33,578 nucleotides of DNA from Methanobacteriota archaeon (GTDB lineage: Archaea; Thermoplasmatota; Poseidoniia; Poseidoniales; Poseidoniaceae). Location: positions 1 to 33,578 of the forward strand of contig JAAZXA010000065.1 in NCBI GenBank assembly GCA_014240385.1, in the 5' to 3' direction. Below, in pieces: positions 136 through 33,383 of the stretch (position 1 is the first letter of the stretch; each line of letters opens with the position of its first letter). Below the pieces are notes generated by a model. That model was not told the DNA's origin, made no database searches, and saw only the letters and a program-made list of their open reading frames with translations. Position numbers and translations under genes: made by a program.

Positions 136-188
136 GTCATTCGGCTTCATAATTTAGGGCTCTAAACCACCTTTGAATCAACTTTCAC

Positions 189-253: not shown

Positions 254-267
254 ATTGAGGGATAGGG

Positions 268-4137: not shown

Positions 4138-4151
4138 AGGAGGGCGACAAT

Positions 4152-7279: not shown

Positions 7280-7580
7280 GCAAATCCCGCTTCGTCCACG
7301 GGAGGCATCAACCTCAAGGTTTCGTTATCAATATGTGGCGGTTTTTTTCTATAGCAGCAGAAAGGTATTGTTTGTCTTTGAAATATTAACGCATTTAACG
7401 TATTGACTAATGCGTTAATGAAGCGTTAATCACTCGTTAATTTGTAAATACTCAGCATTGTTTCCTTTCAAAATGTTAATTTTAAGGCGCTTTGGTGACA
7501 CGATTGACGCATTCAACTAGTGCCCTAACGCATCATATCCTACTGAAGCCTTATGTGCCCACTTTGAGTTCGCACCATTC
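7280..7580. promoter_or_regulatory. AT-rich divergent intergenic region with iterated repeats
   Basis: This 301-base gap separates HMG-CoA reductase (minus) from the AAA/winged-helix gene (plus), so both promoters must lie here. It is AT-rich and holds the GCGTTAAT repeat cluster at 7385-7441 plus related words: TGACGCATT at 7505-7513 and TAACGCAT at 7526-7533. No open frame of note is seen. A clean ribosome binding site is absent in front of the plus-strand ATG, which suggests a leaderless transcript. The region could be an operator or a replication origin; the sequence alone does not decide. Confidence 0.6.
7385..7441. repeat. GCGTTAAT iterons with a perfect 11-bp inverted repeat
   Basis: ATTAACGCATT at 7385-7395 is the exact reverse complement of AATGCGTTAAT at 7409-7419. 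On the plus strand GCGTTAAT occurs at 7412-7419 and 7423-7430, and TCGTTAAT at 7434-7441, with starts exactly 11 bases apart (one helical turn). A further TTTAACG lies at 7394-7400 in the opposite orientation. Such helically phased half-sites are typical of cooperative protein binding, for example at an operator or an initiator-binding origin. They do not resemble the archaeal origin-recognition boxes I know. Confidence 0.75.
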
Positions 7581-10189: not shown

Positions 10190-10191
10190 TC

Positions 10192-10485
10192 ATGGGAAAT
10201 GAACTCGTTAGCATCGAATTAGTCGAAAAATACCTCGAATTAACTAGACGCGCCAGAGAAAAAGCAACTCCGCTAGTCGAGAAAGATAGCGATGAAGAGT
10301 TGAGACTGCAAAGCATGTTGAGAATGGCTGATGATTATTCTCATGATGCAAAGCACTTCATGCTCAAGGGGGACTTGGTTCGAGCATTTGGAGCAATAAA
10401 CTACGCCCATGCATGGATCGACGCTGGAGTCAGAATCGGCTTGCTAGATGGGCACGGAGATGATGAACTGTTTACCTTGCCTTAG
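10192..10485 (+). CDS. DUF357 family protein
   Basis: This 97-residue, all-helical, charged protein matches the archaeal DUF357 pattern. The recognisable core is ADDYSHDAKHFMLKGDLVRA followed by INYAHAWIDAGVRIGLL, corresponding to the family's D-x-x-Y-F-x-x-KGD and YA-x-x-WLDAGVRLG motifs. Function is unknown across the family. It starts two bases after the preceding stop, downstream of GAGAAGAGGTG, and completes the plus-strand unit that begins at 7581. Its stop overlaps the end of the convergent HTH regulator by four bases. Confidence 0.85.
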   Translation: MGNELVSIELVEKYLELTRRAREKATPLVEKDSDEELRLQSMLRMADDYSHDAKHFMLKGDLVRAFGAINYAHAWIDAGVRIGLLDGHGDDELFTLP

Positions 10486-10949
10486 TTTGACAAGGTGTCC
10501 ATATGCTCACTTAATTTAGTTAGTCGCCCTAATTTTTCATTCATCCCTTTTAGTTGGGTCGCTGCCTTTTCTCTATACATTGATGTGGCTGAATAAAACC
10601 CTTCATTCATTGAATAGATGTGCTTAGGGCGTCCTCGATTCAAATTGGCTACCTTTTCAACCTGTATTATTCCATCACCTTTCAATCGAGCAATGCCTAT
10701 GCTCACTTCAGGTTGCCTTAATTTACATAACTTCTGTAATTCACTACTTGAACTCGGTCCATTGGTTGATAAAGCAATCATGATTTTTGCAGCAAAGCCA
10801 TGGACACCGAATTGTTGCAATAATTCTACCAACTCTGAAACGGCTTCAATGGATAATAGTGAGTACTCATTGGTAGGGGTTCGGCTACTGGTATTTATTG
10901 CCATCATGATAGTTCCAACTACATCTAGACTTAAACTTCGCACCGGCAT
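10482..10949 (-). CDS. Winged-helix transcriptional regulator (TrmB/ArsR-like)
   Basis: A predicted DNA-binding regulator of 155 residues. A winged helix-turn-helix spans about 40-115: IMIALSTNGPSSSSELQKL then QPEVSIGIARLKGDGIIQVE, with a wing carrying RGRPKHIYS, a pattern common in TrmB-like regulators. Residues 120-152 form a helical, probably dimerising tail. Ligand and targets are unknown. No ribosome binding site precedes ATG 10949, but TTTATTA lies about 30 bases upstream on the coding strand, consistent with a leaderless mRNA. An alternative start at the Met pair near residue 15 is possible. It is last in the minus-strand block, with its own likely promoter. Confidence 0.78.
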   Translation of the reverse strand: MPVRSLSLDVVGTIMMAINTSSRTPTNEYSLLSIEAVSELVELLQQFGVHGFAAKIMIALSTNGPSSSSELQKLCKLRQPEVSIGIARLKGDGIIQVEKVANLNRGRPKHIYSMNEGFYSATSMYREKAATQLKGMNEKLGRLTKLSEHMDTLSN

Positions 10950-10975
10950 GAGCCGGAAAAAAAGGAAATTGGCAC

Positions 10976-10982
10976 TAATAAA
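10976..10982 (-). promoter_or_regulatory. TATA-like box for the HTH regulator
   Basis: On the minus strand TTTATTA lies in the short gap after the PIN gene stop, centred about 30 bases upstream of the regulator's ATG at 10949. This is the usual distance for a TATA box driving a leaderless archaeal transcript. It would give the regulator expression separate from the aIF2-gamma/PIN transcript. Confidence 0.45.
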
Positions 10983-11354
10983 CTAATCCGTTGCTAGCCT
11001 GAGGCGCTTCTTGGAAACCACTTCAATGACGCGACAAGAATAATCTATCAAGCGCTTCTTTAATTCTCTATCAACTGTCAATACGGCGCAATTCCGGTGG
11101 TTTGCCATATCCACTAACTGATCATCAGTGTGATTTGTAGACTCTTCAAGTGCCATTATCAATTCAGCTTTTGAATAAATCAACGGCAACAATAAATTTT
11201 TCTTTTCTTTTGCTAAGTCATCTAACTCATGCTTGACGTTTTCCAATAATAATAATTGGAAAGGTCCGACTAAACCATTGAGTGAAGTGTCGATGTTGAT
11301 TCCTGAATCAACAATAGCGACCCACCCACAAGTATCAATGAGGACCTCTTGCAT
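10983..11354 (-). CDS. PIN-domain nuclease (Fcf1/VapC9-like)
   Basis: A 123-residue single PIN domain, a metal-dependent RNase fold. Acidic active-site residues are visible: D7 in VLIDTC, E43 in NVKHELDDL, D77-D78 in TDDQLV and D95 in VLTVDRELK, in the expected order and spacing. The gene lies 15 bases downstream of aIF2-gamma on the same strand. In many archaea a PIN protein of this type accompanies aIF2-gamma and has been linked to rRNA processing by similarity to eukaryotic Fcf1/Utp24. No antitoxin-like partner is adjacent, which argues against a toxin-antitoxin role. RNA processing is therefore the favoured but inferred function. Confidence 0.88.
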   Translation of the reverse strand: MQEVLIDTCGWVAIVDSGINIDTSLNGLVGPFQLLLLENVKHELDDLAKEKKNLLLPLIYSKAELIMALEESTNHTDDQLVDMANHRNCAVLTVDRELKKRLIDYSCRVIEVVSKKRLRLATD

Positions 11355-11369
11355 GGCCTTAGCCCCTTC

Positions 11370-12608
11370 TCAGCAAATTGAACCATGGCCAATTAGGCGC
11401 CATCGTGAGCCCACTCGGCGAGAAAAGCTAACTCTAGCCCCCTTATCTGCACAAATCGGTAGGCGCAACTTCATTGTTGTAATTCCCTTGTCCGCTTTTG
11501 AAACAATTCCGACGGTGGTTGCTGTTGCTACATTGACCATCAGCATTTCATTTCCTCGTAATGGGTGAATAATTTCTGGCTCTTCACCTTCTGAAGCAAC
11601 CATCTTCTTCATCAATTGTACTTTTACATTGATTGTGTCGCGGATTTCAGGTAAATCCCCTTTCTTTGCCACAACTTGACCTGAAAGATTGTCAGCAGTT
11701 GTTGTCATTGGGTCCAATGGAGTTGCCATCCCGCATAGTCCACCTGCATGCATCTCATCAAGTGAATTACCACCGCCTTGCATACTGACAACTTTTGTTT
11801 CGATAAGGTCCCAACGAACTTTTCCATCGTTCTCAATCTTTCGACCTGGGCCAATGACAACCTCATCACCAACCTTGAAGATTCCTTCAACAATGCTACC
11901 TCCAACTACTCCGCCCTTCAACTTAGATGGACGGGATCCAGGCCGGTTAATGTCGAATGAACGAGCCACGTGCATGATAGCGCGCTCCTCATCATCTCTT
12001 TCTGGAGTTGGAATAAATGCTTCAATGGCTGCGATTAATATGTCCAAATTAACATCATGATGGGCAGATACTGGAATAACGGGGGCATCTTCAGCGATTG
12101 TTCCTTTGAGGAAGGACTTAATTTCTGCATGTGATTCAAGTGCCCTTTCCTTTGTGGCCAAGTCAATTTTATTCTGCACCACTACAATGTTTTTTATTCC
12201 TGCAATTTCCAGAGCCATCAAATGTTCACGAGTCTGCGGCTGTGGGCAAGTTTCATTGGCTGCGACCATCAATAATGCACCATCCATAATGCTTGCACCT
12301 GTAATCATGATAGCCATCAGAGTCTCGTGACCAGGTGCATCAACAAAGGAAACTACTCGAGCCAATTCTTTCCCTACATCCTTGCCACCATCTGGGCGGC
12401 GGCCGGTTGCATAGTGCTGCCCGTCTGCAGTTTTGTAGAAAGCCGTGTCCGCATATCCGAGTTTAATGCTGATTCCACGCTTGCGCTCTTCAGAGTGGGT
12501 GTCTGTCCAAACTCCACTAAGAGCTTGGGTCAAGGTGGTCTTGCCGTGGTCGACATGGCCTACTAATCCAATATTGACTTCAGGTTGCGTAGGAAGTTTA
12601 CGACCCAT
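11370..12608 (-). CDS. eif2g: Translation initiation factor aIF2 subunit gamma
   Basis: GTPase subunit of aIF2, which brings methionyl initiator tRNA to the small ribosomal subunit. GTPase motifs from ATG 12608: GHVDHGKT at 17-24, switch 1 RGISIKLGYAD at 44-54, DAPGH at 90-94, NKID at 146-149, then the two beta-barrel domains. A longer frame opens at TTG 12641 overlapping the S6e stop, but ATG 12608 has AAGGGGA nine bases upstream and gives 412 residues, the usual length. The segment after switch 1 (about 55-82), which carries a cysteine zinc knuckle in many archaeal and eukaryotic homologues, has no cysteine here. It lies between S6e and the PIN gene, a typical archaeal arrangement. Confidence 0.96.
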   Translation of the reverse strand: MGRKLPTQPEVNIGLVGHVDHGKTTLTQALSGVWTDTHSEERKRGISIKLGYADTAFYKTADGQHYATGRRPDGGKDVGKELARVVSFVDAPGHETLMAIMITGASIMDGALLMVAANETCPQPQTREHLMALEIAGIKNIVVVQNKIDLATKERALESHAEIKSFLKGTIAEDAPVIPVSAHHDVNLDILIAAIEAFIPTPERDDEERAIMHVARSFDINRPGSRPSKLKGGVVGGSIVEGIFKVGDEVVIGPGRKIENDGKVRWDLIETKVVSMQGGGNSLDEMHAGGLCGMATPLDPMTTTADNLSGQVVAKKGDLPEIRDTINVKVQLMKKMVASEGEEPEIIHPLRGNEMLMVNVATATTVGIVSKADKGITTMKLRLPICADKGARVSFSRRVGSRWRLIGHGSIC

Positions 12609-12637
12609 GCATTCATTCCCCTTCAGTCCAAACTTAC

Positions 12638-13108
12638 TCAATCTTCAGTGGATTCATCACTACCGCCGAAAATATCGGCGAGGGCTTTGTTTCCAGCCTC
12701 GATGACCTTCAAGTTTAGCTGTCGGGTATCATTGGTGACCACATTGCCACGGAAGTTTCGGCGCATGCGCATTCCATCTTCTTTGTAGCGGTAGCGGTTT
12801 CCTTTCTTGTGAACAATTTTATGACCTTTGAATCCAGTTCCAGCAGTGATTAGAACTGATTTTTTTGCGCCACCTTCAAGATCACTGCGCATTGGTGTTC
12901 CGGTCTTATCAGAACCACCGGAAATTGTTAATTTATAGCCTGCAAGGGTGTTTTCCCCTTCCCCTACGAAGATACCGTCGACAACGTCGCCGATTTTCTT
13001 GCCAAGGAATTGATTGTAGTTACTACCTGATACCTTCAAGGCATAACTACGGCCATTATTTTCTGGAGCAGTATCGTTGATTACTGCCACGAATTCATTG
13101 TCTGCCAT
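12638..13108 (-). CDS. rps6e: Ribosomal protein S6e
   Basis: Small-subunit ribosomal protein of archaea and eukaryotes. The family core is plain: FLGKKIGDVVDG, YKLTISGGSDKTGTPMR, a Gly/Lys-rich GFKGHKIVHKKGNRYR and the RRNFRGNVVTNDTRQLNLKV segment. Its 156 residues are slightly longer than many archaeal versions because of extra N-terminal residues and an acidic tail (SDESTED). GGAGT lies about nine bases upstream of ATG 13108. It directly precedes aIF2-gamma on the same strand. Confidence 0.95.
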   Translation of the reverse strand: MADNEFVAVINDTAPENNGRSYALKVSGSNYNQFLGKKIGDVVDGIFVGEGENTLAGYKLTISGGSDKTGTPMRSDLEGGAKKSVLITAGTGFKGHKIVHKKGNRYRYKEDGMRMRRNFRGNVVTNDTRQLNLKVIEAGNKALADIFGGSDESTED

Positions 13109-13180
13109 GTAAAGGACTCCTATTGCAGCCGCCCGACTGTCGACTCCTATTTAGCCCCACCGCAACTGAAACGAAGGCTT

Positions 13181-14401
13181 TCAAGCCCGCAGCCTCTTCT
13201 TGATGAGTGGTTGAAGGCGTTTTTCAAGGTCTGCGGGAAGCATGTGTGGCATCGAAAAATGCTGAGTTCTCCCCCGCCCTTCATTCAACCTGTCTACTCT
13301 CGCAACCAATAAATCACACTCCTCAAATTGCTTCAAGTATTTCCATAAAGTGGTATGGCCACGAGGTGCTTGTTCAAACTCCTCGCAAACTACGCGATAT
13401 AGAGTTTCAACATCGCCGCTGGTAATTTCAGTACGGTTTTTCAATCTTCTACAAACTGCAGTCAGCAATATCATCGCATGTGTTGCCAATTCATCGATGA
13501 TGATTTCAACGTGGTTTCCTGCTTTCACCATGCTTGAAATTTGTACATCCGCTGGTAGCACTTCCGACCTGCCATCTAATTCAGCGGATTTGGCGGCAGA
13601 ATCTAACAAATCAATCACAACTCTAGCATCACCACTTGCAGCAGCGGCTTCAGCAATCAACAAAATGATTGATTCATCGATACTTGAGGGGGTAAAAGCG
13701 AGACTGGCTCTCTGTTTGGCAATTCCGAATAGACCCTCTTTATCATAACCCTGAATTCGCAAGTGGCGGCTTCTCCCAAAGCGTGAGATGACCGCTCCTT
13801 CAAAGAGGTCTAAGATTTGTTCTTGGCTGATAAGAATAAGTGAAAGAGAACCTGTTGAATCTTGGTCTTCATCGATTCTCAAAAGCCTATAGACAAGGTC
13901 ATCACCAGACTTTCTAAGAAGGTGGTCGGCTTCGTCGAGGATGATTATTATATGCGAAGATGATTGCTTTAGTAAGCGCCTAACACTCGCTAATATCTCA
14001 CCTACTCCAAGACCCCTATCAGGGTGTCCAGGGGACAAATACTGAATCACCCGCTGCATTACTTGAGTTGGCGAAGGGTTGTTTCTACAATTGATGTGCA
14101 ACCAGCGAATATTACGCTTTTCGGCGTGGTGGCGACTGATATCTTCCACGAAGCGCCTACTAAGAGCGGTTTTTCCAGAACCAACTGGGCCAGTAATCAC
14201 CGCCCGACCACTTGAATTAGGGTTTTCTAATCCCGCAAACATCGATGCTAATTCGATTAGTTGTTGATCTCGACCAATTAATTCGGAAGGCAGATAGTCA
14301 TAGCCTAACATCTCGGGATGCTGCAGGACCAAACCTGCGCCTATACGGTCGAGCCAGGATGACATGGCTTTGGGAGGTGACCGCCAACCGTTATTGAACA
14401 T
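13181..14401 (-). CDS. cdc6: Orc1/Cdc6 replication initiator
   Basis: AAA+ protein that binds archaeal origins and helps load MCM. Numbering from the longest frame (TTG 14446): IGRDQQL at 57-63, Walker A GPVGSGKT at 86-93, Walker B IIIILDEADHL at 166-176, sensor-1 strand LSLILIS with Gln in place of the usual Asn, an arginine-containing VISRFGRSRHLRI, and sensor 2 GDARVVIDLL at 272-281. A C-terminal winged helix follows. The 14446 start would be TTG. I give ATG 14401 but the start is uncertain. No origin-like repeats are seen in the short gap upstream toward Dph2. Confidence 0.92.
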   Translation of the reverse strand: MFNNGWRSPPKAMSSWLDRIGAGLVLQHPEMLGYDYLPSELIGRDQQLIELASMFAGLENPNSSGRAVITGPVGSGKTALSRRFVEDISRHHAEKRNIRWLHINCRNNPSPTQVMQRVIQYLSPGHPDRGLGVGEILASVRRLLKQSSSHIIIILDEADHLLRKSGDDLVYRLLRIDEDQDSTGSLSLILISQEQILDLFEGAVISRFGRSRHLRIQGYDKEGLFGIAKQRASLAFTPSSIDESIILLIAEAAAASGDARVVIDLLDSAAKSAELDGRSEVLPADVQISSMVKAGNHVEIIIDELATHAMILLTAVCRRLKNRTEITSGDVETLYRVVCEEFEQAPRGHTTLWKYLKQFEECDLLVARVDRLNEGRGRTQHFSMPHMLPADLEKRLQPLIKKRLRA

Positions 14402-14525
14402 AGCCTCAGTCTTACTGCCTTTCAGTGGTATTTTCAATTGATTCAATACATTGCAATCCTAGTTATCTAAGCGCGGCAACTGAATTGTGCCTACTTGTCT
14501 AGATGTCCGATTTCTTTCAAGCTAG

Positions 14526-15644
14526 CTAAGGAATCTCGTCAAATTGGTAGCCATGCTCCCATTTCTTCTCACCAAGCGCAACTTCCAACTCAAATGGAGT
14601 GAGCAGGGGTTTGTCATATTTGACAGAATCATCAATAGCGATTCTTGGACAAGCAGTATTTACAAAGGCATCAACTGGATAGAAATTAATCAGTTCTGGG
14701 TCAACATGCTCTAGGGCTAGTAAATATCCCTTTTTCCCATGACTTTCCAGCATTCTTTTCATGCGTAAAGCCAGTGAACGTCGCATCTGACCGGGCTTTT
14801 CACCGATGAGAATCCCGTACCTTTGTGCATCTTGGCACATCATGATAAGGCCAAAGCGCTGCCTCAGGATGCCCTCTACAAATCCCAAAGATATCTCTCT
14901 GGCCTCAGTGGTGTATGGGTCAAGCAAAGCCAATGGCTTCCCTGTATGCAATACCAGACCGATTGGATGGAAGTCTCCTGACCCGAGGAATAGGTAATGC
15001 CCGATATCATCATCGTCGCCTGAATAATTACACCCAAGTACTTGACCTGGGAATGATAATCTCTCACCACCGGTTGGAATCTTGACATCAAAACCTGCAC
15101 TCTGAAGTCTTTCTTTGAAAGTCTCGAGGAGGTGTAAATGTTGTATTGACCCTACCAATCCAAGTTTTACATCAGATAATGGAGCGACTCTTCCAACTGC
15201 ATCAAGGAACCTCTCTTTAGCCTCTTCATCACTTAAGTCACTATGTGTAGACACAATGTCCTCCTTGGATAATCTTTGGAGAGCCATCTCACGATGCTTC
15301 TCAATAATAGGAATGACTGGAGCAAGTTCTGGATCGCCATCATATGTGACTGGAATGAAGTGGGTTGGCATGCCAGAATCGATATTCATCTGGCTGTGTC
15401 CCATATGAGCAACCAATTCAACACCCATCATTTTCATCTTATGGTGGACCAAGTCACAGGCCCCAAAACATGGGTCTGCAGCAAGGATGACCTTGGCTGC
15501 ACTTTCTGTTTCGATGCGGTCCATCAATTCTAGAGCCTGAATTTTCAATCCCTCAGGCAGTTGAAGAGCGACTAATCGAGTGTCTTCAGCCTTCAACCTC
15601 TCGACTAAATCGCTAACTTGGAAGTCATGCCTATCAAGGTCCAT
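14526..15644 (-). CDS. dph2: Diphthamide biosynthesis enzyme Dph2
   Basis: Catalyses the first step of diphthamide synthesis on elongation factor 2: transfer of the 3-amino-3-carboxypropyl group from S-adenosylmethionine by a [4Fe-4S] enzyme. Family features are LQLPEGLK near 28-34, ADPCFGACDL (C59), the cysteine in VLGCNYSG (C205) and the C-terminal VNTACPRIAIDD (C332), giving the three cluster cysteines in separate subdomains. Length (372) fits archaeal Dph2, which acts as a homodimer. It sits between the phosphoribosyltransferase and cdc6 on the minus strand and has no strong ribosome binding site. Confidence 0.94.
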   Translation of the reverse strand: MDLDRHDFQVSDLVERLKAEDTRLVALQLPEGLKIQALELMDRIETESAAKVILAADPCFGACDLVHHKMKMMGVELVAHMGHSQMNIDSGMPTHFIPVTYDGDPELAPVIPIIEKHREMALQRLSKEDIVSTHSDLSDEEAKERFLDAVGRVAPLSDVKLGLVGSIQHLHLLETFKERLQSAGFDVKIPTGGERLSFPGQVLGCNYSGDDDDIGHYLFLGSGDFHPIGLVLHTGKPLALLDPYTTEAREISLGFVEGILRQRFGLIMMCQDAQRYGILIGEKPGQMRRSLALRMKRMLESHGKKGYLLALEHVDPELINFYPVDAFVNTACPRIAIDDSVKYDKPLLTPFELEVALGEKKWEHGYQFDEIP

Positions 15645-15680
15645 ATTGGGGCCGCACTATTGATTGCTGATGAACCCTAC

Positions 15681-16247
15681 TCAAAGGATGTTTATACAAT
15701 TCCCGTCTATTTCAACCTTCACAAGGCTAGAAATGTGCACTGAGTGCTTGCTAGCTATAGTCTGCATCTTCTCACCCTTTTCTACTACCACGATAACTTC
15801 ACTGACCTGAGCGCCGGTCTTTTCGACTCCAGAAAGGATTGCATCCAGAGTACCACCAGTTGATAGAACATCGTCGATTATCAAGATATTATCACCCTTT
15901 GATAAATCATTTAGATACATCTTTCCATGGCTATATCCGGTCTGCTGCTCGACCTCGATTTCACCCTCGAGCCCATAAGACCTCTTTCTCGCAACAACCA
16001 TTGGTAATGATTGCATCAAACATATCGTCGATACTAGGGGGAGGCCCATCGCTTCTATTCCAAGAATAAGGTCTACCTTGCTCCAATCAACTCTTTCGAT
16101 GATAAGATCGGCAACAGATCGTAATAAATCAGCATCAACCCTTGGTATGCCATCAGTTAGTGGATGAATAAAGTAGCAATAATCATCCTTCTTGATGATA
16201 GGAACCCCATCAAACGAAGCGCGTAAAAGGGCTAATCTCTCATCCAT
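15681..16247 (-). CDS. hpt: Hypoxanthine/guanine phosphoribosyltransferase
   Basis: Purine salvage enzyme transferring phosphoribosyl from PRPP to hypoxanthine or guanine. Matches archaeal HGPRTase: DYCYFIHPLTDGIPRV near the N-terminus, GIEAMGLPL, RKRSYGLEGE, QQTGYSHGKMYLN and the PRPP loop ILIIDDVLSTGGTL. A longer frame runs to 16328 and would overlap L10e. ATG 16247 is better because GAGGCGG precedes it by six bases and the 188-residue product has the family length. Adenine specificity cannot be ruled out from sequence alone. Confidence 0.9.
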   Translation of the reverse strand: MDERLALLRASFDGVPIIKKDDYCYFIHPLTDGIPRVDADLLRSVADLIIERVDWSKVDLILGIEAMGLPLVSTICLMQSLPMVVARKRSYGLEGEIEVEQQTGYSHGKMYLNDLSKGDNILIIDDVLSTGGTLDAILSGVEKTGAQVSEVIVVVEKGEKMQTIASKHSVHISSLVKVEIDGNCINIL

Positions 16248-24033: not shown

Positions 24034-25257
24034 TTATTTCATTTGCACAAGTTTCGAAAACTCAGGCCAAGAAACTCGATAGCAACCAGGCGAATCTAAC
24101 TCAGCCCCCACTTTAGTGGCTAAAACTGCTGCAGTCATGAACATCCTGTGGTCTCCAAAACAAGCAACGATCTCAGTAGGTACTGCTACTTCCTGACCTC
24201 CTTCCATCCTCAAACCATCGGCTGTTGCCTCGGCTTCCAAACCAAATGATTTCAGCATTTCAACTGTTTTTTCGATTCTATTGGACTCCTTGTACCGAGC
24301 ATGGGCAACACCGGTAATTTCTCCACCAGTTTTCAAACACATCAAGGCTGCAATAGGCGTAATCAAGTCATTTGCCGTACTAAGGTTGATTTTTCCTTGG
24401 ATTTGAGAATCCAACACTTCAGGGTAGAGGAGGTCTTTAGTATTGAGTTCTATAGGAATATCACTTGCATGCAGATGATTGAATAAATGTATAAACGCCA
24501 ATAAACTTGAATCAGCAGGGATTTTGACCTCGCTTGGTGGATTCACATTCCATTTATTCAGGGTATTACTGAATTCAGGCATTCCACATTGTTGGCCGAC
24601 TTGTTTACTCAATTCTCCATGGGCTTGGCTAACTTGCTTTCCTGTTGTTTCAACTTGGGTTTCTTGATTCAATGAATGTGAGGCCAGAATCAATGCTGAT
24701 AATGGCTGACTGCTCATTGATACATCGACTTTGACTGATGAATTACTGATTGGTCCTTTGATTAGAAGCGGTAAGAGTTCGGGACCACTCCCTTGGCTAA
24801 CTTCAACCCCTAAATCCCGCAATAATTGTACAATAGGTGAATGATCTCTTGCTCTTAAGTTTGCATCACCATCGAGCATGACAGGTTCTGCTAAGGATGC
24901 CACTTGAATTGCTAAAAGGCGTAAGGCTGTTGCTGAGTTTCCACAATGTAAAACGCTGATTGGTCGCCTAAAGACCCCCCCCCGCACTTGCCAACCATCA
25001 CTGCTGGGTTCAATTTTCGCTCCCATTTGAATCAGGCAGCGGCGCATTGATTCTGCATCTTCTCCTGGAATGCCTTCAAATCGAAGCATTGTTTTCTTCT
25101 CATTGAGGGCTGCCATCATCGCCCATCTGATTAGGTGACTCTTTGATGGGGAAAGGGGTGGTTTTGCCATAGGGTTATCTTCTATAGGGAGGATAAGTGT
25201 TGTTTTGAGAGGGTTATTTGGTCCATTTGAAGGGGACCATTTTCTCAAGGCCCTCAT
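24034..25257 (-). CDS. aroA: EPSP synthase (3-phosphoshikimate 1-carboxyvinyltransferase)
   Basis: Sixth step of the shikimate pathway: joins phosphoenolpyruvate and shikimate-3-phosphate. Family signatures: PSKSHLIRWA with SKS at 38-40, CGNSATALRLL at 105-115, DGDANLRARDHSP at 129-141, SSQPLSALILA and CFGDHRMFM near the C-terminus. At the position of E. coli Gly96 the sequence has Ala109 and the following Pro is Leu, a pattern seen in glyphosate-insensitive enzymes. ATG 25257 with GGTGG six bases upstream is preferred to TTG 25263. It is coupled to moaA upstream. A run of nine C (24975-24983) lies inside the gene. Confidence 0.94.
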   Translation of the reverse strand: MRALRKWSPSNGPNNPLKTTLILPIEDNPMAKPPLSPSKSHLIRWAMMAALNEKKTMLRFEGIPGEDAESMRRCLIQMGAKIEPSSDGWQVRGGVFRRPISVLHCGNSATALRLLAIQVASLAEPVMLDGDANLRARDHSPIVQLLRDLGVEVSQGSGPELLPLLIKGPISNSSVKVDVSMSSQPLSALILASHSLNQETQVETTGKQVSQAHGELSKQVGQQCGMPEFSNTLNKWNVNPPSEVKIPADSSLLAFIHLFNHLHASDIPIELNTKDLLYPEVLDSQIQGKINLSTANDLITPIAALMCLKTGGEITGVAHARYKESNRIEKTVEMLKSFGLEAEATADGLRMEGGQEVAVPTEIVACFGDHRMFMTAAVLATKVGAELDSPGCYRVSWPEFSKLVQMK

Positions 25258-25259
25258 CT

Positions 25260-26327
25260 TCAACCACCGATGTAAGACATCTCTACTTTATCGGGTTTTG
25301 AATGGTTTGAATTACGCAATTCAGAATATCGGTCATCTCTCTTTTGCCAAATATTGATTATTTCTTGTTGGAGTTCTTGATCTGAGATTCCCGAGCGAAC
25401 CAATGGCAATAGGTCATGGCCAGAAGATGAGAATAAACAGGTGTACAATTTTCCATCAACAGAAAGGCGAGCACGACAACAATCTCCACAGAATGGTTGA
25501 CTGACTGATGTAATGAATCCGATGTTCCCTTTTTGGTCTAGATATTTCCAGCGCTTTGCGACTTGTCCTGCTGATTCTGAATCTATTTTGCTGATTGGGT
25601 ATTTTTTAGAAATTACCTGAATCATTTCCGCGGCTGTCATAACCTCCTCCATTTTCCACTCATTAGTCGTGCCAACATCCATGAATTCAATAAAACGTAA
25701 TTCAACTTCAGTACCACGGAAATGTTCAGCTAGTGGTAGTAATTGTGCCTCGTTAACTCCTTTTCTGATTACCGCATTGACCTTAACTGGAAGTCCGGCT
25801 TTGATTGCTGCTTCGATTCCTTGATGAACAGATGAAATTGAAATATCTGTATCTGAAATTTGGGAAAATATCTCTTCATCAATTGCATCAAGGGATACCG
25901 TAACTCTCGATAATCCGGCATTTGCTAGAGCCTCGGCGTGTTTAGGCAATAGTATTCCATTGGTGGTCATGGCAATGTCGATGTCTGGACCAAGCGCAAG
26001 ACGAAGCATGGCTACAAATTCAGATACATCGCGTCTCAATAGCGGTTCGCCACCAGTAAGTCTGATTTTTTGAAGGCCAGATTTACTTAGAGCGACTGCT
26101 GTTTTGCACATCTCCTCATAGGACATTATCATTTCACGAGGTAGGAAATTATGGTCGGGACCAAATAGTTCTCTTGGCATGCAATATGTGCATCTTAGAT
26201 TGCATCTATCTGTAACTGAAATACGCAAGTCCTGCAATGGTCTCGAGAAAGTGTCGAGAAGCGGCAGAGAGCGGACAGATGGCACGGGCCTTGCGTGGCA
26301 TAACTTACTGTTCAATGTACGCACCAT
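25260..26327 (-). CDS. moaA: GTP 3',8-cyclase MoaA (molybdenum cofactor)
   Basis: Radical SAM enzyme starting molybdopterin synthesis from GTP. The N-terminal cluster motif is CNLRCTYC (C42, C46, C49) followed by LTGGEPLLRRD for SAM. The C-terminal cluster is CxxC-x13-C with C280, C283 and C297, binding GTP. It ends in MSYIGG, the double glycine typical of MoaA. ATG 26327 gives 355 residues; a TTG at 26339 is an alternative. It is followed within one base by aroA. No other molybdenum cofactor gene is in the window. Confidence 0.96.
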   Translation of the reverse strand: MVRTLNSKLCHARPVPSVRSLPLLDTFSRPLQDLRISVTDRCNLRCTYCMPRELFGPDHNFLPREMIMSYEEMCKTAVALSKSGLQKIRLTGGEPLLRRDVSEFVAMLRLALGPDIDIAMTTNGILLPKHAEALANAGLSRVTVSLDAIDEEIFSQISDTDISISSVHQGIEAAIKAGLPVKVNAVIRKGVNEAQLLPLAEHFRGTEVELRFIEFMDVGTTNEWKMEEVMTAAEMIQVISKKYPISKIDSESAGQVAKRWKYLDQKGNIGFITSVSQPFCGDCCRARLSVDGKLYTCLFSSSGHDLLPLVRSGISDQELQQEIINIWQKRDDRYSELRNSNHSKPDKVEMSYIGG

Positions 26328-26345
26328 TAGGTACTGCAATCTAGT

Positions 26346-26828
26346 TCACTCTTTGATCATGAATGTAGTGATTACTGATTCAGTATTTTCGTAAAACAAA
26401 GTTACTCTCCAGTTCCCTTCATTAAGGTGATGGTGGGCACTATTGAGGACGAAATAATCTCCTTGAGTGACCGTATAACCTGCATCTGCATCGATAAATG
26501 ATGAATGGGAGCCTACCATCCCATAGACATCTGCTTGACCTGCCCAGATAACAACTGAACTCAAATTTGCCGTCATTGGAATCATTGTCAACCTAACCTT
26601 TGATGGGTCGAGTGGCTTATCTAAGTGGGTGAATGTAATGATATGGTGGCCGTTTGACAATTCTGCAATTGATACACCTCCCCGTGGGCTGATTTTATCC
26701 ACTGAACCAAATGCACCTTGGAACATCACGAAGACCATGCTAGTCAACAATACCGTGATTGCTAAAAGAAGAACTGTTGCGATAACTGGGCTAACTGCCT
26801 CTTCATCTGCCTCAAGCCCCCTCTGCAT
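26346..26828 (-). CDS. Archaeal type IV pilin-like protein
   Basis: 160 residues beginning with a short charged leader (MQRGLEADEE) and then AVSPVIATVLLLAITVLL, the hallmark of the archaeal pilin N-terminal domain: class III signal peptide cleaved by a prepilin peptidase, then a hydrophobic helix that packs in the filament core. The rest is a small beta-rich domain with surface residues. It could form a pilus, or be a FlaG/FlaF-like subunit, but no secretion ATPase or platform gene is in the window. Its start is 117 bases from the KaiC gene start chosen on the other strand. Confidence 0.88.
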   Translation of the reverse strand: MQRGLEADEEAVSPVIATVLLLAITVLLTSMVFVMFQGAFGSVDKISPRGGVSIAELSNGHHIITFTHLDKPLDPSKVRLTMIPMTANLSSVVIWAGQADVYGMVGSHSSFIDADAGYTVTQGDYFVLNSAHHHLNEGNWRVTLFYENTESVITTFMIKE

Positions 26829-26945
26829 CAGATGCGCGTGGGCACTGCTCCCCCTTCAATCAACCGCTTCAGACAACCCCTTAGACAAGCAACACCAACA
26901 CAGCCTTCTTCAACCACCCACGCTGTCGGCCAACCGGTTAACATC

Positions 26946-27725
26946 ATGCAATCCACTTCCTACACCCGTGACAGATGCGTCACAGGAGTTCATGGATTGG
27001 ATGAAATCCTTCGTGGTGGGATTCCATATGGTTCTACTGTACTGGCTGCAGGAACGTGTGGAAGTGGTAAAACTACGCTCGGAATGGAATTCTTAGTAAG
27101 AGGGGCAACAACAGGGGAAGCCTGTGCCCACTTCACTGCAACTGAACCATCTGTAAAACTGCTTGAGAATATCCGCCAGTTCCCATTCTTCGATATGGGG
27201 ATGGTAGATAGTGGTCTGATAAATGTCTTTGATATGGATGTTCTATATTCTTGGCTTGGGCTTGAAAAGGCCTCATTCGACCTCGAAGATGTTCACGCAT
27301 TAATCAAGGCAATAACCGATATTGTCAACACGATAGGGGTGACTCGCTTAGTCATCGATTCAGTCACCACCCTTTGTTATAAGATTAAGAGCGAACAGTT
27401 GATTCGGGATTTCCTCTTTACATTGGGGAAAAAACTGGCAACTCTTGGCTGTACTACTATTTTGATTTCTGAAATTACCTCTGCAACTGAAAATGCGCAT
27501 TGGTCTTCATTCGGAGTGGAAGAAGCAATTTGTGACGGAATCATTGTCATGGGAGATGTGGAAAGAATGGGCCATCTATTGCGTTTCCTTCAAGTTGTAA
27601 AGATGCGTGGAACATCTCATAGCAGAGCAAAAAATACTCTTGAACTAACTCCGCTTGGAGTAATGCTAACACCGATGCTGAAATGGGGCTCAAATGTAGA
27701 CAATAAACAAGGAGGGTGGGGTTGA
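26946..27725 (+). CDS. KaiC/RAD55-family ATPase (active member of trio)
   Basis: RecA-superfamily KaiC-like protein. The domain opens with CVTGVHGLDEILRGGIPYGS, then Walker A GTCGSGKTT at 36-44, a TATEPS segment with a candidate catalytic Glu, and Walker B LVIDS (D138), ending in a KMRGTSHS-type region typical of KaiC. The frame extends to ATG 26832, but those 38 extra residues are low-complexity Pro/Thr/Ser and would leave three bases before the divergent pilin. ATG 26946 is therefore preferred, though no ribosome binding site supports either. Archaeal relatives include FlaH and other signalling ATPases. Partners are probably the two downstream paralogues. Confidence 0.85.
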   Translation: MQSTSYTRDRCVTGVHGLDEILRGGIPYGSTVLAAGTCGSGKTTLGMEFLVRGATTGEACAHFTATEPSVKLLENIRQFPFFDMGMVDSGLINVFDMDVLYSWLGLEKASFDLEDVHALIKAITDIVNTIGVTRLVIDSVTTLCYKIKSEQLIRDFLFTLGKKLATLGCTTILISEITSATENAHWSSFGVEEAICDGIIVMGDVERMGHLLRFLQVVKMRGTSHSRAKNTLELTPLGVMLTPMLKWGSNVDNKQGGWG

Positions 27726-27727
27726 AA

Positions 27728-28309
27728 ATGGAATTAGATCAACGTATCGCAGAACAATTGACTGAGGTCTCATTGAATAGTTCGGTCCAAGTTAGGTGTG
27801 GCACATCCAATGCATTCATGGTTACCGCTAGTGTCATAGTCCCATTATTACATTCATTTGAAATGGGAGGAGTATACATTTCTGCAAGCCGAGGAGCGGC
27901 GGAAACAATTGATGCGCTCGAAGCTCTTGGGCTGTCAACTGAACACATTCACTTCATTGACTTAGTTTCTTCAGGATTCCTCGGAGGTACTGAAGTTGAG
28001 CACAAGAATATCTCATTCGTAGATTCTCCAATCATGCTTGAAAGCGTCTTACTGCGCACCCTTTATCATTTGAGAACAACGGATAATGAGAGGAACTTCG
28101 TATTTTTAGACAGTGTCAATGCGTTAGCGATTTACAATGAAGAAAGAATGCTTGCTGAATATCTTCATACTTTCATCAATACATTTAGAAATCGTGAAGT
28201 TCTAACTGTTATTCTAAACGTTCCAGACCAAACTCCACCAAGTGTCTTGGCAAATATGGATCTTTATTGCACAGATCTAGTTGACAGGGGACAGGTAGTC
28301 ATACATTGA
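27728..28309 (+). CDS. KaiC-like protein with lost P-loop (second of trio)
   Basis: 193 residues with the layout of a RecA/KaiC fold but no phosphate-binding loop. Where Walker A is expected the sequence reads CGTSNAFMV (24-32) without GK[ST]. A Walker B-like strand FVFLDSVNAL (D128) is kept. It is therefore probably unable to hydrolyse ATP. Start is ambiguous: GTG 27716, TTG 27722 or ATG 27728. AAGGAGG at 27709-27715 is well spaced for TTG but 12 bases from ATG. It overlaps or abuts the previous gene, so it is co-translated. Likely a pseudoenzyme partner of the upstream ATPase; this is inference. Confidence 0.82.
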   Translation: MELDQRIAEQLTEVSLNSSVQVRCGTSNAFMVTASVIVPLLHSFEMGGVYISASRGAAETIDALEALGLSTEHIHFIDLVSSGFLGGTEVEHKNISFVDSPIMLESVLLRTLYHLRTTDNERNFVFLDSVNALAIYNEERMLAEYLHTFINTFRNREVLTVILNVPDQTPPSVLANMDLYCTDLVDRGQVVIH

Positions 28310-28318
28310 GGCGATTAA

Positions 28319-29128
28319 ATGGCATCCAAAGATAATTTAGTATTCGACTCCGATGACGAAGAATATTTCGGTGAAGCAGGGAGTTTTGGTGTTCCAAAAT
28401 TCGATATTGAGATGCGCGGAGGTATCCCCAGGGGTTTTACAGTCGTGTGTATCGTCGAAACTGGCGCTGGTGCTGAATTATTCGCTAAACAGTTTTCATC
28501 GCCTGCTGAAGAGCCAGAAAATACACTTTATGTTTCAACTTCAGAGTCGGCCAAGGAAATTCTTCGTGTGTTCCATAAATATGGCTGGCCAGATGACATC
28601 AATGTCCGAACTATTGGAGAAGAATACAATGAAAGGGTACTGGAAAAGGAATTGCAGGCCAGCCGGTACAGACTACAGGGTTTTGGCATGAAAGATATTC
28701 AGACTTTGGCCCAAACTAGATTCGTAGATGATGAATCAGATGATTTCCTAACCGAATTAACAAATGAAATAATGACATTAAAGCCTTATTTCAGAGCCGT
28801 TGTTGACAATATGGATTTCTTCTTTCAAAGGAATGACCATTCAAAAGTGGTCTCAATGCTGAGGATGATGCAAGCCCACACTCAGATGATGAGAGGATTG
28901 TTATTGATGACAGTAAGTAAAGATACGATAACAAAAGCAACTGAATCTGAAATCTCAATGATCGCTGACATGGTCCTTCGGTTCGAAGTATTCATGGTCG
29001 GAACAGAATTCGAAACTCGAATGGTTATCAAGAAATTTAGAAATGCACCTGAGAATTTGGCTGTCATCACCTACCGTGTGACTCCAGAAGAGGGTATCAC
29101 TCCAGAGACAGTACAGCGTATTGCTTAA
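28319..29128 (+). CDS. KaiC-like protein with lost P-loop (third of trio)
   Basis: 269 residues with an acidic N-terminal extension (DSDDEEYFGE) and then a KaiC-like opening, FGVPKFDIEMRGGIPRGF. The P-loop position reads ETGAGAELF (47-55), lacking the GK[ST]. A Walker B-like strand AVVDNM (D163) and a C-terminal MVIKKFR segment match KaiC relatives. Probably non-catalytic. GAGGCG precedes ATG 28319 by six bases. It ends the trio and is followed by an oligo-T tract. No named family is recognised. Confidence 0.82.
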   Translation: MASKDNLVFDSDDEEYFGEAGSFGVPKFDIEMRGGIPRGFTVVCIVETGAGAELFAKQFSSPAEEPENTLYVSTSESAKEILRVFHKYGWPDDINVRTIGEEYNERVLEKELQASRYRLQGFGMKDIQTLAQTRFVDDESDDFLTELTNEIMTLKPYFRAVVDNMDFFFQRNDHSKVVSMLRMMQAHTQMMRGLLLMTVSKDTITKATESEISMIADMVLRFEVFMVGTEFETRMVIKKFRNAPENLAVITYRVTPEEGITPETVQRIA

Positions 29129-29176: not shown

Positions 29177-29183
29177 TTTTTTT
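29177..29183 (+). terminator. Oligo-T terminator after the KaiC-like trio
   Basis: TGGCTG followed by seven T lies about 50 bases after the last stop of the trio, in the short convergent gap with the lamin-tail gene. Archaeal RNA polymerase terminates at such T tracts without a strong hairpin. Confidence 0.5.
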
Positions 29184-30267
29184 AATCGCCAGGTGTTGGT
29201 GAACTTTCGGCATCCCACGAATCGGTATCCATCGGCTCGCCACCATTCCACACTAAGCTGCTGCCAGTAGGTAGGGTCCAAGTGGTATCCCACTCGACTT
29301 CCATCACCATCTTCTCCCCTACGTTATTCCTATTTGCATGAGTTAATTGTAATCTTCCGATGCTGTCCCCTAATCCCTCAATCGCTCCTACTCCCAATAG
29401 TCCAACTGTTGAGCCGTCATAGATCCAACTTGCATTACCCGCTTCTTGAGAAGGAGGATGTCCACTCAATAATACATGGGCTCCACCAGGGATTGTACCG
29501 TTTTTGAAAAGCACCGAGGCTGTACCGTAACCAGGAGTTGATCTCTCTACACCCCAGCCTTCCATCTCTACAGCAAAGCCATTTGGATTATACAACTCGA
29601 TCCATTCAGGTCCACCATCAGCGGGCCTCGGAATAAATTCAGAAATTTCAATTTCGGTAAAACCTCGATACCCATCATGGACCTCAAGGGTCACCCTTAC
29701 TTTTTCATCATTCAAAGAAAAACTTCGGCTTGCGGTTGCGCTATCTCTTGCTTCACTTCTTGGTGTACCATCATCAAATAGCAGCATTCCTACTCTATTT
29801 TGGTCATCGGATTCGATGACTTTTACCATTAATCTAATATTCACATTACTGTCTAAACCAATTCCATTAGTTAGTTGGTATTCAGTTACATTGGATAATG
29901 CAGCCAACTTTAATGCATCTATTCCTCCTGACGAGGAAAGTAATCCCGGTAATACATCACCTTGTGCAAGGATTGAAGATGGAACGAGGTGCCAATCAGT
30001 GGTCGCATTATTCAATTGCCTCGTTTCATTAACAATTGGAGTGAACCAACCAGTTGAATCTGTGAGCATCGACAAACCGCTAACTGCGGCCTCATCAAGG
30101 CGGTCGGTGGTAGGATCATATGGCCCAAGTGTCAATTGGGCAAGGGAAAGGAAGGCAGTTACAATCATCAAAAACAAAACAAACGCAGTGAGGAATTCGA
30201 TGACTGCAGTCATCGCCGAATCGTCCTCTCGCAGATTTGTTGCGACGACTACTGAACTACTCTGCAT
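29182..30267 (-). CDS. Membrane-anchored protein with lamin-tail domain
   Basis: A 361-residue protein. A short leader (NLREDDSAM) and hydrophobic helix at 20-45 (AVIEFLTAFVLFLMIVTAFL) resemble a pilin-type or anchor segment. A beta-rich extracellular region follows. At ~203-300 lies a lamin-tail domain: ISEFIPRPADGGPEWIELYN, the MEGWGV strand and a GGAHVLLSG turn, the usual LTD blocks. Several Asn-x-Ser/Thr sites are present. The frame extends to GTG 30327, but ATG 30267 has GAGGAGG four bases upstream. It is divergent from the large surface protein and convergent with the KaiC trio. Confidence 0.8.
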   Translation of the reverse strand: MQSSSVVVATNLREDDSAMTAVIEFLTAFVLFLMIVTAFLSLAQLTLGPYDPTTDRLDEAAVSGLSMLTDSTGWFTPIVNETRQLNNATTDWHLVPSSILAQGDVLPGLLSSSGGIDALKLAALSNVTEYQLTNGIGLDSNVNIRLMVKVIESDDQNRVGMLLFDDGTPRSEARDSATASRSFSLNDEKVRVTLEVHDGYRGFTEIEISEFIPRPADGGPEWIELYNPNGFAVEMEGWGVERSTPGYGTASVLFKNGTIPGGAHVLLSGHPPSQEAGNASWIYDGSTVGLLGVGAIEGLGDSIGRLQLTHANRNNVGEKMVMEVEWDTTWTLPTGSSLVWNGGEPMDTDSWDAESSPTPGD

Positions 30268-30410
30268 TGCCCCTCCTCGGGCTATGCTGAGCGCGACTCC
30301 ATGATGAGGGTTGGGTTTGTATTGCACTCCATAATTAGTGTATTACAACAACACTGTGACAACATGCACAACCGATTGATATTTGAGGAACCGATGGAAG
30401 GAGTGTAGTG

Positions 30411-33383
30411 ATGTATGGTGCGTCCGCGACGAATGCCACCTCAATAAATGGCAGAAAAAGTGCACTGAGTATTGTAATTCTAATGCTCTTTTCCCTTTTT
30501 GCAGGAGTTCTTTCTGTTCAAACAGTTGCTGCAGCAGCCGCAGGTGATTTGGCACTATCTTCCCCTGAATCACCACTTGAAAATGGAAACTATTCTAGAT
30601 ATGATTCAATTCCAATGGAAATTGAAGTTTGGAACAAAGATATTGTCCCCTTATCTGGTTCAAGGACTATCAGATGGTATGCTTGTTCTGGAGATCATGT
30701 GGACTCAGGTTGCCCAAACCAAGGCCGCTCAACTGGTATCTCATCAGTTGCAGGAATTGGAGTAAATGAAAAGGTGCTCGTCTCCTTCCCAACTCCATTC
30801 TATCCTGATGAATCAGAAATAGGAATCCACACTGTTGAGTTCCTATTTGAGGAATTTGACTCTAATGATGATGATGACATTATCCGATTCAATTTCTGGA
30901 TAGCAGAGGAATTATTCGATATTGTCATGGATGATGAACATGATATGCGGCCTGCAAATTCAACCTTTGCAATTTATGAAGATGAATATGTCTACAATTC
31001 TAATACCGATTATCCAATGTATGCCAAGGGAGTATCCAATAATTGTGTTGGCTGTACTTTCGATGTTGAAATGGGATGGAGGCTTGTGACTGATAATGGT
31101 AGTATTGTGGCCGAGAATACAACCAATATCTCTGATTTCTCTGAGTGGGGTCAACAATACTTCAATCGAAGCCTACCAAACTTAAGTTCCCCAGAAACCG
31201 GAAGGTTCACCTTGCAAATCGGTGTTTTCAATTCAACTGCCGAAGATGCAAATGGCAATCCAAGTTCAGACCTAAATTTATTCAATGATATTATAGAATA
31301 TGAAGTCGTCTTCAACAACAATATTGATTTGACAATCGAGAGTATGTATCCTGACTACAAATATGATAGTTTGGAATATTATTACGGTAATGAATCAGTT
31401 GCTGTAGAGGTTGTAAATAATGGCAATATTTCTTCAGAAGAAACAACCTTATTCCTCGAATTATTCCTTAGTGACTCTTCGCCTGCAGAGATACCATGGG
31501 AATGTAATCTGCCCGTATTATTTCCACGTCAGTCCTACAAATGCTTGTTTGACCTGACAGTTATCGGTGATTACATCTTAAATGCGAGTATAACAACTAC
31601 TTTTAGTTCTGGAGATGATGAGAACGGAAATGATAACTGGCTTTACGAACAAATCACGGTTGTCGCTGGAGGTCTTACTCCTTCGATTACTTTGAACCAC
31701 GTATCTGGGTCTTATGATACTGGAGATACTATCGAATTAGTTGGACAAGTGGGTACAACCGCCGCTCAACCACTGAATTACTCTTGGTGGCTTGCTGGGA
31801 TTATTCCCAAAGGTACTGGAAGAGTATTGTATCTTCCAGCCACGGACTTAGGAATGGGGGAGCACGATCTGCAACTTCGTGTTGTTGATGCACTTGCAAA
31901 TGTTGCTAGCAGTAGCCGTAAGATTACTATTTACAATCGTACTGCATTAACAGCAGAACCTATTGCCAGTGGTGAGGCTTTGACAACCTCAAATGCTATA
32001 CTTCAGTATCATCAAGAATTACCACGCTTGAATATTGACTATAACTTACCTCGTAATATCAGTCCTTTGATGTTGTTTGAGTTTGATGTAATAAGTACAG
32101 ATGAAAATAAACCTGACCCGCAAGCGCAGGACATCAATTTACAATTAAATTTCTCTTCATTAATCCCTGATTCAGTTCCTCATGATACTCTTCAATTACT
32201 TCATTTAGACTCTTTTGAAGGTGGTTTTTGGAATGAATTAGAATTTCCAGATGAATTTATTTCATACAATAATGATTCATCAAACCTCAGTATTCGCAGT
32301 GGAGGGAAATTCCTGCTCACCGGCGCTTTACCTCCGATTGAAGTGAAAGCTGAAGGTATTAATGTCACACAATTACCAGGGGGATATATTCGATTAGACT
32401 TTGTACCTTCAGGGGATTTAGAAAATGTCTATTTCAGTGGCTGGAAAATTATGAAGAGGGTTAATGACAGAGATGTACCAATGCGCCATCCTGATAATTC
32501 AACTGAAGAACAAGAAACCGAGTATGAAAGGTTGTATTATGTTGCGGATTTGGCCGCTGAAGAGGCAGTTTGGTTTGATCCAAAACCGCTGGATGATGGT
32601 TTTTGTGCTTCTTATGCAATCGTTCCTTTCGACCGTCAAGGAATAACAGATTGGCAGAGAGGTAACATCTCCGGCTGGCAAGGAAGTGGTCTTCCGGACA
32701 TGGCTTGTGGAGATTCAATACCCCCATATAGTGGAGTAACTGGGCTTTCCGCTAGTTATCAATATCGTAACGAAACAAAATGCTACAATGATTACCAAGA
32801 TTGGGATATGTGCTATGTGGTTAATGTGACTTGGAATTGGCCAAGTACCTCGGAATTGTTGAGGTTCAACCTTTACAGACTTGAAATAATGCCGAATGAA
32901 AGCATGAATTTTACATTTATGGAGCCCTTAGCAGTTAACCTCTCAGGAGTGGCAGGGAGCAGTGGATATTGGAATGAAACTTCGTTCGATGGCATCCTAC
33001 CTAACCACACATTCTTCTATGTACTCGCGCCTATTGATGAGGTTGGGAATATAAATCTTCAACCAGGAACCGTTAGTGCTTCTTTCACAAAAGTTAGGAT
33101 TGAAAATGATTTTTGGAAATATAATCAGCATGTCATCCCAGTTCCACCACCCCCTGAAGAGCCTCCATATGGTATCGAATACCTTGGAGAATTGAAATCG
33201 TGGATGGATGATTCACGCTTCCAAACTATTGGTCTGACCGCTTTAGCAATATTTGTTATCAATCTAATAACCTTGCCAATCCTACTCCAGAAGCGCAAGA
33301 AAATTAAAGTCAAGATTGCAAAACAGAACCCTGGTAACGATGAGGATGAATTAGAAGACGATTTAGCCGGATTCTTCACCTAA
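30411..33383 (+). CDS. Large surface glycoprotein-like protein with C-terminal anchor
   Basis: 990 residues, no named family. An N-terminal signal peptide (hydrophobic segment around SIVILMLFSLFAGVLSV then a run of alanines) is followed by repeated beta-sandwich modules: a CARDB-like domain at ~300-400, a PKD-like module at ~424-510, and a fibronectin-III-like region near 790-900 with cysteines. Many Asn-x-Ser/Thr sequons suggest N-glycosylation. A membrane helix at ~938-960 and a basic, then acidic tail close the protein. GGAAGGAG lies seven bases before ATG 30411; an adjacent GTG at 30408 is less likely. Probably an S-layer-like or adhesin-type surface protein. Confidence 0.85.
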   Translation: MYGASATNATSINGRKSALSIVILMLFSLFAGVLSVQTVAAAAAGDLALSSPESPLENGNYSRYDSIPMEIEVWNKDIVPLSGSRTIRWYACSGDHVDSGCPNQGRSTGISSVAGIGVNEKVLVSFPTPFYPDESEIGIHTVEFLFEEFDSNDDDDIIRFNFWIAEELFDIVMDDEHDMRPANSTFAIYEDEYVYNSNTDYPMYAKGVSNNCVGCTFDVEMGWRLVTDNGSIVAENTTNISDFSEWGQQYFNRSLPNLSSPETGRFTLQIGVFNSTAEDANGNPSSDLNLFNDIIEYEVVFNNNIDLTIESMYPDYKYDSLEYYYGNESVAVEVVNNGNISSEETTLFLELFLSDSSPAEIPWECNLPVLFPRQSYKCLFDLTVIGDYILNASITTTFSSGDDENGNDNWLYEQITVVAGGLTPSITLNHVSGSYDTGDTIELVGQVGTTAAQPLNYSWWLAGIIPKGTGRVLYLPATDLGMGEHDLQLRVVDALANVASSSRKITIYNRTALTAEPIASGEALTTSNAILQYHQELPRLNIDYNLPRNISPLMLFEFDVISTDENKPDPQAQDINLQLNFSSLIPDSVPHDTLQLLHLDSFEGGFWNELEFPDEFISYNNDSSNLSIRSGGKFLLTGALPPIEVKAEGINVTQLPGGYIRLDFVPSGDLENVYFSGWKIMKRVNDRDVPMRHPDNSTEEQETEYERLYYVADLAAEEAVWFDPKPLDDGFCASYAIVPFDRQGITDWQRGNISGWQGSGLPDMACGDSIPPYSGVTGLSASYQYRNETKCYNDYQDWDMCYVVNVTWNWPSTSELLRFNLYRLEIMPNESMNFTFMEPLAVNLSGVAGSSGYWNETSFDGILPNHTFFYVLAPIDEVGNINLQPGTVSASFTKVRIENDFWKYNQHVIPVPPPPEEPPYGIEYLGELKSWMDDSRFQTIGLTALAIFVINLITLPILLQKRKKIKVKIAKQNPGNDEDELEDDLAGFFT

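Follow-up and report, generated by a model that had tools for sequence, protein, structure and literature searches.

What does a tight cluster of three KaiC-like genes do when only the first of them encodes a complete P-loop, and how is it connected to the pilin gene beside it? The question is raised by a stretch of 33,578 nucleotides (contig JAAZXA010000065.1, hereafter the window), which is contig 27 in a genome bin from the Poseidoniales (Marine Group II) with a completeness of 83%. The three genes are termed K1, K2 and K3. In the initial annotation they were read as a complex of one ATPase and two pseudo-ATPases, possibly an undescribed system for the control or assembly of a surface structure.

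Gene content of the locus

All three genes are encoded on the plus strand. K1, an active-type KaiC-family ATPase, occupies positions 26946–27725; its longest open reading frame is 26832–27725, and the start methionine conserved throughout the family lies at 26946, both the start and the motifs being conserved in 42 orthologs. K2, a short P-loop-less relative of KaiC, occupies 27728–28309 within a longest open reading frame of 27716–28309, with the likely ATG at 27728. The nearest named match of K2 is in a Candidatus Poseidoniales MAG and is 99% identical. K3, a full-length P-loop-less protein similar to KaiC and ArlH, occupies 28319–29128. The trio had been placed from position 26346 onwards, which is instead the boundary of a minus-strand gene for a PilA-type pilin (26346–26828; Pilin_N, 37.9 bits); the trio itself begins with K1.

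The pilin gene is divergent from K1 in the window's genus. On the other side of the trio, a membrane protein with a lamin tail domain (LTD; 39.7 bits) is encoded on the minus strand at 29182–30327, and its N-terminus has a pilin-like look, by inspection only. Adjoining it is a gene for a large secreted or surface protein (30408–33383, plus strand), which is conserved in most Poseidoniales loci with homologs that are 27–37% identical; a domain search matched it to no known family. The trio is inverted relative to its flanks in this genus, loci L006 and L007 being arranged alike, and this inversion accounts for the opposite-strand position of the pilin and LTD genes in the window.

One motif-complete ATPase and two P-loop-less relatives

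K1 matches the Pfam family KaiC (PF06745) at 176 bits, above the curated cut-off of 26.6. It is a protein of about 260 amino acids with a single KaiC domain, unlike circadian KaiC, whose chain has two. Its P-loop, GTCGSGKTT (27051–27077, plus strand), is invariant in the alignment, with the lysine and threonine present in 42/42 sequences. In loci read across about 20 families, the Walker-B aspartate is conserved in 42/42 and the catalytic glutamate in 39/42. The motif KMRGTSH (27600–27620, plus strand) corresponds, by alignment to solved KaiC, to residues K224, R226 and H230, which in KaiC contact the ATP of the neighbouring subunit. The lysine and histidine of this KxRGxxH motif are present in all 42 sequences and the KxR arginine in 38.

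The observation that only the first gene keeps GSGKTT holds across the orthologs: the P-loop is present in 42/42 K1 proteins, in 0/44 K2 proteins and, in intact form, in 0/35 K3 proteins, a distribution by which the loss of the P-loop in K2 and K3 is judged to be ancestral. A Walker B-like strand without a phosphate loop, also noted at the outset for K2 and K3, was seen again, and the Asp-Ser pair of K2 (28109–28114, plus strand) is invariant in all 44 orthologs. Judged by sequence, K1 is a member of the KaiC family and K2 and K3 are inactivated relatives of it.

K3 also passes the PF06745 cut-off, at 53 bits, and reads GAGAEL where the P-loop would be. Against the NCBIfam ArlH equivalog it scores 55.7 bits, under the 215-bit cut-off of that model. 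The former P-loop region, ETGAGAELFAKQ (28457–28492, plus strand), contains an invariant Lys-Gln pair (window 28475–28492 and orthologs) five residues past the lost P-loop lysine, as seen from the ortholog alignment and motif counts. Among the 35 K3 proteins examined, only four have lysine at the P-loop lysine position, never followed by serine or threonine; the Ser/Thr position is occupied by glutamate in 31 and by aspartate in three. The K3 proteins of loci L186, L192, L202 and L224 (families f3 and f12) retain the lysine within GSGKE or GAGKE, which would represent an intermediate stage of P-loop loss. Further along the chain, the motif KFRN (29033–29044, plus strand) aligns with KMRG of K1 in a profile comparison and is the equivalent of the KxR contact of KaiC. 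Its lysine is found in 32/33 and its arginine in 28/33 sequences, and KxRN is nearly always kept.

In K2, the former P-loop position reads GTSNAF (27800–27817, plus strand), and in the profile comparison with K1 the chain ends just before the position of the KxR motif. The window K2 alone matches PF06745 at 13.8 bits (E = 0.04), which is under the curated cut-off. Its relatives match more often: 28/32 reach KaiC and 21 reach DUF7090 at E ≤ 0.01, and one matches DUF7090 above the cut-off. When family profiles built from phylum-wide alignments were compared, K2 matched K1 with a probability of 93% over 167 columns; with Poseidoniales-only alignments the probability was 0.2%. Since one of the control genomes, that of Haloferax volcanii, also gave a DUF7090 match, the K2 family may reach outside Thermoplasmatota.

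Whether the second and third genes might have other folds was addressed with predicted models. That of K3 is of modest quality (pLDDT 69) but matches FlaH and KaiC with E values of 1e-12 to 1e-9 (FlaH, 2.6e-12), and its KaiC/FlaH fold is secure. The model of K2 (pLDDT 72) had KaiC as its best Foldseek hit (E 0.01, TM 0.31), which is not significant, and it was set aside as proof of the fold. The model being too weak, the assignment of a KaiC-type fold to K2 rests on the sequence profiles.

Gene order and distribution

A profile search detected K2 in 144/244 Poseidoniales genomes and in 15/22 genera, namely every one of the 11 genera in family f1, plus g15, g17, g19 and g22 of family f2. Among the same 244 genomes, no convincing K2 was detected in the other seven genera; a match in g20 at E = 1e-3 contained three stop codons and was discounted. 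The distribution of K1 equals that of K2 in a sample of 116 Poseidoniales genomes. All 20 long Poseidoniales loci carry the genes for the LTD membrane protein, K1, K2 and K3 in this order on one strand. The K1–K2 and K2–K3 pairs mostly overlap or lie no more than about 12 bases apart, with gaps of up to 29 and 50 bases in one locus.

Across Thermoplasmatota, the K2 profile found matches in 144/293 sampled genomes and in 73/138 genera, making K2 a phylum-wide family. Gene-by-gene examination of 40 loci, drawn from about 20 families, with separate profiles for K1, K2 and K3 showed K1 ahead of K2 in nearly every case and K3 next in about 30. Families f30, f37, f38 and f22 have a PilA-type pilin after K2, at the usual place of K3. 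K2 has no adjacent K1 in loci L197 and L220 of family f7, and in L220 it adjoins a pilin and genes with the look of potassium uptake. The LTD protein is also found upstream of K1 in f20, and in f13 and f20 the gene for a protein with a MetOD1 domain separates K2 from K3. A search for the three-gene order in other Thermoplasmatota, suggested with the initial annotation, thus found the genes linked throughout the phylum. The view of the trio as a fixed and tightly spaced unit of one ATPase and two P-loop-less homologs is upheld by all 20 Poseidoniales loci and by most of the 40 others. The order of K1, K2 and K3 and their near-zero spacing are not due to chance.

Loss of K3 and erosion of K1

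When whole genomes were searched with the K3 profile, those examined from f30, f37, f38, f22 and f7 yielded no K3 ortholog. The best match in these families was about 50 bits, compared with 300–381 bits in K3-bearing genomes. The K1 proteins of f30, f37 and f38 have kept the P-loop, but at least one of three other residues (catalytic glutamate, Walker-B Ser/Thr and KxR arginine) has been lost from every copy; where K3 is present, these residues are intact in 35/35 loci. The catalytic glutamate of K1 is likewise lost in additional f30 loci. Because this erosion coincides with the absence of a K3 ortholog in all three families, K1 and K3 seem to be functionally coupled. Families f30, f37 and f38 form a single clade (UFBoot 100), so the erosion of K1 with loss of K3 counts as one event. 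Family f22 is an exception, having no K3 and a K1 with intact motifs.

Association with type IV pili

In eight families (f1, f2, f7, f22, f30, f37, f38 and f42) the unit has a PilA-type pilin as its neighbour, and no pilin is adjacent to the trio in about 10 families, f24 included. The link to pilin genes is therefore recurrent, with adjacency in 8 of about 18 families, but it is not universal, and pilins are not always linked. Adjacency in several separate lineages is estimated to be far above chance, most genomes in the pilin test carrying only 1–4 pilins. Being encoded with pilus genes, as KaiC pilus regulators are, applies to the trio in these eight families and not in all. Apart from pilins and general ABC-transporter-like genes, no neighbour family recurs in more than four families.

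The Poseidoniales provide a second line of evidence. A Pilin_N gene was present in 5/5 trio-bearing genomes tested and in 0/8 trio-less ones, counts that come from a non-random sample, as the genomes were partly picked for adjacency already seen. A pilus ATPase of 412 amino acids, accompanied by a split platform of two small membrane proteins, was found in all 15 trio-bearing genera and in 0/7 others. The pilin family of the window occurs after K3 on the same strand in g10, g17 and g19, and in genus g7 a gene of this family overlaps the pilus ATPase gene at its end; the pilin thereby ties the trio locus to the pilus ATPase locus. The Poseidoniales without the trio have small genomes and may have shed it, the pilins and the ATPase in the course of a wider gene loss, and the shared ancestry of these lineages weakens the co-distribution as evidence.

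Two further features of these regions were observed. The window's pilin adjoins moaA and aroA (24034–26828), as it also does close to the pilus ATPase in genomes G002 and G027, and aroA and mutL remain near the pilin in g17 and g19; from its recurrence, this neighbourhood looks old. At locus L071 (positions 1–16158; genome G000, contig C15), the 412-amino-acid ATPase and the two platform proteins are encoded behind a 128-amino-acid protein and two genes that are RPA/OB-fold-like by inspection, and a giant RCC1/FG-GAP-like adhesin gene comes after the ATPase and platform genes. The split platform recalls that of the CdiP pilus of Cuniculiplasma (PMC12448462).

Proposed mechanism and alternative explanations

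On balance, the evidence tips slightly towards a heteromeric assembly of the KaiC/RecA type, in which K1 as the ATPase and K2 and K3 as pseudo-ATPases act on type IV pili. K1 would bind and hydrolyse ATP, and K2 and K3 would have structural or regulatory roles. A mixed assembly is the simplest reading of the motif pattern, in which K1 is complete, K3 has only the KxR motif and K2 has neither this motif nor a P-loop. K3 would most likely pack beside K1 and offer its KxR motif to the ATP of K1, tuning the activity of the latter. K2, with neither motif, could cap the assembly, connect it to a partner or carry its output. Like ArlH in the archaellum, the unit would work from the cytoplasmic face of type IV pilus systems and, in response to a signal, would gate pilin assembly or pilus activity. 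The MetOD1 protein encoded inside the f13 and f20 loci fits such a signal input, MetOD1 being a domain of archaeal response regulators (PMC5847659).

We infer a physical complex, the contact of K3 with K1 in trans, and the control of pili. The model is supported by the fixed linkage, the conserved motif losses, the erosion of K1 where K3 is missing and the recurrent pilin neighbours. Counted against it are the families in which no pilin is adjacent, the restriction of the erosion to one clade, the intact K1 of f22, the occurrence of K2 beside a pilin with no adjacent K1 in f7, and the weak model of K2. A narrower version is offered only tentatively: that the three proteins make up a heteromeric ring of one active and two dead subunits, with a design like that of Elp4-Elp5-Elp6, in which the Lys/Arg of K3 reaches the ATP of K1 in trans, and that this ring governs the type IV pili of Thermoplasmatota.

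Several of the same observations bear on other explanations. The trio might be a general signalling hub, in which a KaiC-type switch works with a pair of inactive adaptors and the output is not specifically pili; the pilin neighbours would then be one of several outputs or a chance relic of old gene order. The many trio loci with no pilin nearby and the MetOD1 proteins within two loci point in this direction, as does the proposal that KaiC homologs are archaeal signalling hubs (cited in PMC5847659). Such a hub is nevertheless rather doubtful when set beside the recurrence of pilins in eight families, their tracking of the unit in Poseidoniales and the scarcity of any other widely shared neighbour. 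It is also improbable that the three genes are merely co-transcribed, with K2 and K3 as nucleotide-independent regulators working outside a K1 assembly. The persistence of K2 by a pilin with no adjacent K1 in f7, and the loss of K3 while K1 and K2 remain, would suit such separate action; near-constant order and spacing would not, nor would the eroded catalytic residues of K1 in the K3-less clade.

An accessory role in the archaellum, with K3 as a degenerate ArlH-like subunit that works with ArlI, would agree with ArlH/FlaH being the best NCBIfam and fold match of K3. Flagella genes, reported for all MGIIa and roughly half of the MGIIb genera (PMC6461757), also have a distribution similar to that of the trio. 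The archaellum operon, however, lies at another locus with its own P-loop-containing ArlH-like gene, and the trio is outside it. ArlI orthologs occur in the trio-less genera g14 and g21, and none was found in the trio-bearing g17 and g22. This mismatch and the separate locus weaken the archaellum explanation, which is considered unlikely. An assembly of K1 with K2 and K3 that acts on type IV pili remains the preferred reading.

Comparison with known systems

What appears to be new here is a fixed, phylum-wide trio of one active member and two dead ones, together with the link between K3 presence and an intact K1. The literature already contains KaiC ATPases in the neighbourhood of pilus loci (2016; PMC4858521) and inactivated KaiC domains, termed iKaiC (Makarova 2017, cited in PMC5847659). 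The suggestion of an undescribed system therefore does not extend to these two elements. It does stand for the fixed trio, of which no description was found in the papers examined. Two published accounts of Poseidoniales genomes that report flagella genes make no mention of KaiC. KaiC-like proteins have been proposed as the main signalling hubs of archaea, few of them with a known partner, and the trio is a definite candidate partner set for a KaiC-type protein, conserved over a phylum. From the division of motifs, the ATP-binding member and a possible activator can be predicted. The control of pili by KaiC paralogs also becomes testable in planktonic archaea that rank among the most abundant at the ocean surface.

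The archaeal KaiC hubs and iKaiC proteins (DUF7090, DUF7504) resemble the trio in combining active and inactivated homologs, pilus loci and signalling domains; the fixed three-gene order is the feature that sets the trio apart. ArlH/FlaH, the closest relative of K3 to have been characterised, is likewise a single-domain KaiC-like protein that serves a type IV pilus-like machine. It binds ATP without hydrolysis and stimulates ArlI, the archaellum motor (PMC8978795). Unlike the trio, in which ATP binding is assigned to K1 in company with two P-loop-less paralogs, ArlH itself keeps the P-loop. CirA of Haloferax volcanii, a KaiC-like regulator of archaellation and cell shape that affects motility, resembles the proposed role of the trio, and pilin genes are among those changed in a cirA deletion; no P-loop-less partner proteins are reported for CirA in the available text of that account (PMC13286277).

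Some related genes were seen in the Poseidoniales. A fourth KaiC-like protein (locus L072, 9475–10227; genome G000, contig C66) is encoded in the same genomes as the trio and is about 25% identical to K1 there and about 30% in relatives. The FlaD/E marker PF04659 was found in 0/244 Poseidoniales genomes and is of no use as an archaellum marker in this group; an unnamed gene for a 277-amino-acid protein occupies the FlaC/D/E place in the Poseidoniales archaellum operon (locus L074, 12715–13548).

Outside the KaiC family, Torsin-LAP1, from the unrelated AAA+ family, offers a mechanistic analogy only. LAP1 is a partner without nucleotide motifs that activates the ATPase and has a strictly conserved arginine (PMC4358337). 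The design of the trio also recalls Elp4-Elp5-Elp6, in which three different RecA-like paralogs form a heterohexameric ring (PMC10018365, PMC9634574), although that ring serves tRNA modification. PAXNEB (Elp4) matches 12/18 K3 proteins (best 7.8e-9) and Iki1 (Elp5) matches 10/32 K2 proteins (best 6.5e-4), and these matches are not specific, since the single members viewed fall under the cut-off and K1 matches Elp4 as well. No Elongator chain was among the PDB sequence matches listed. If the mixed ring is real, archaea would have a RecA-like ring of three paralogs, most of them inactive, as in the Elongator complex of eukaryotes.
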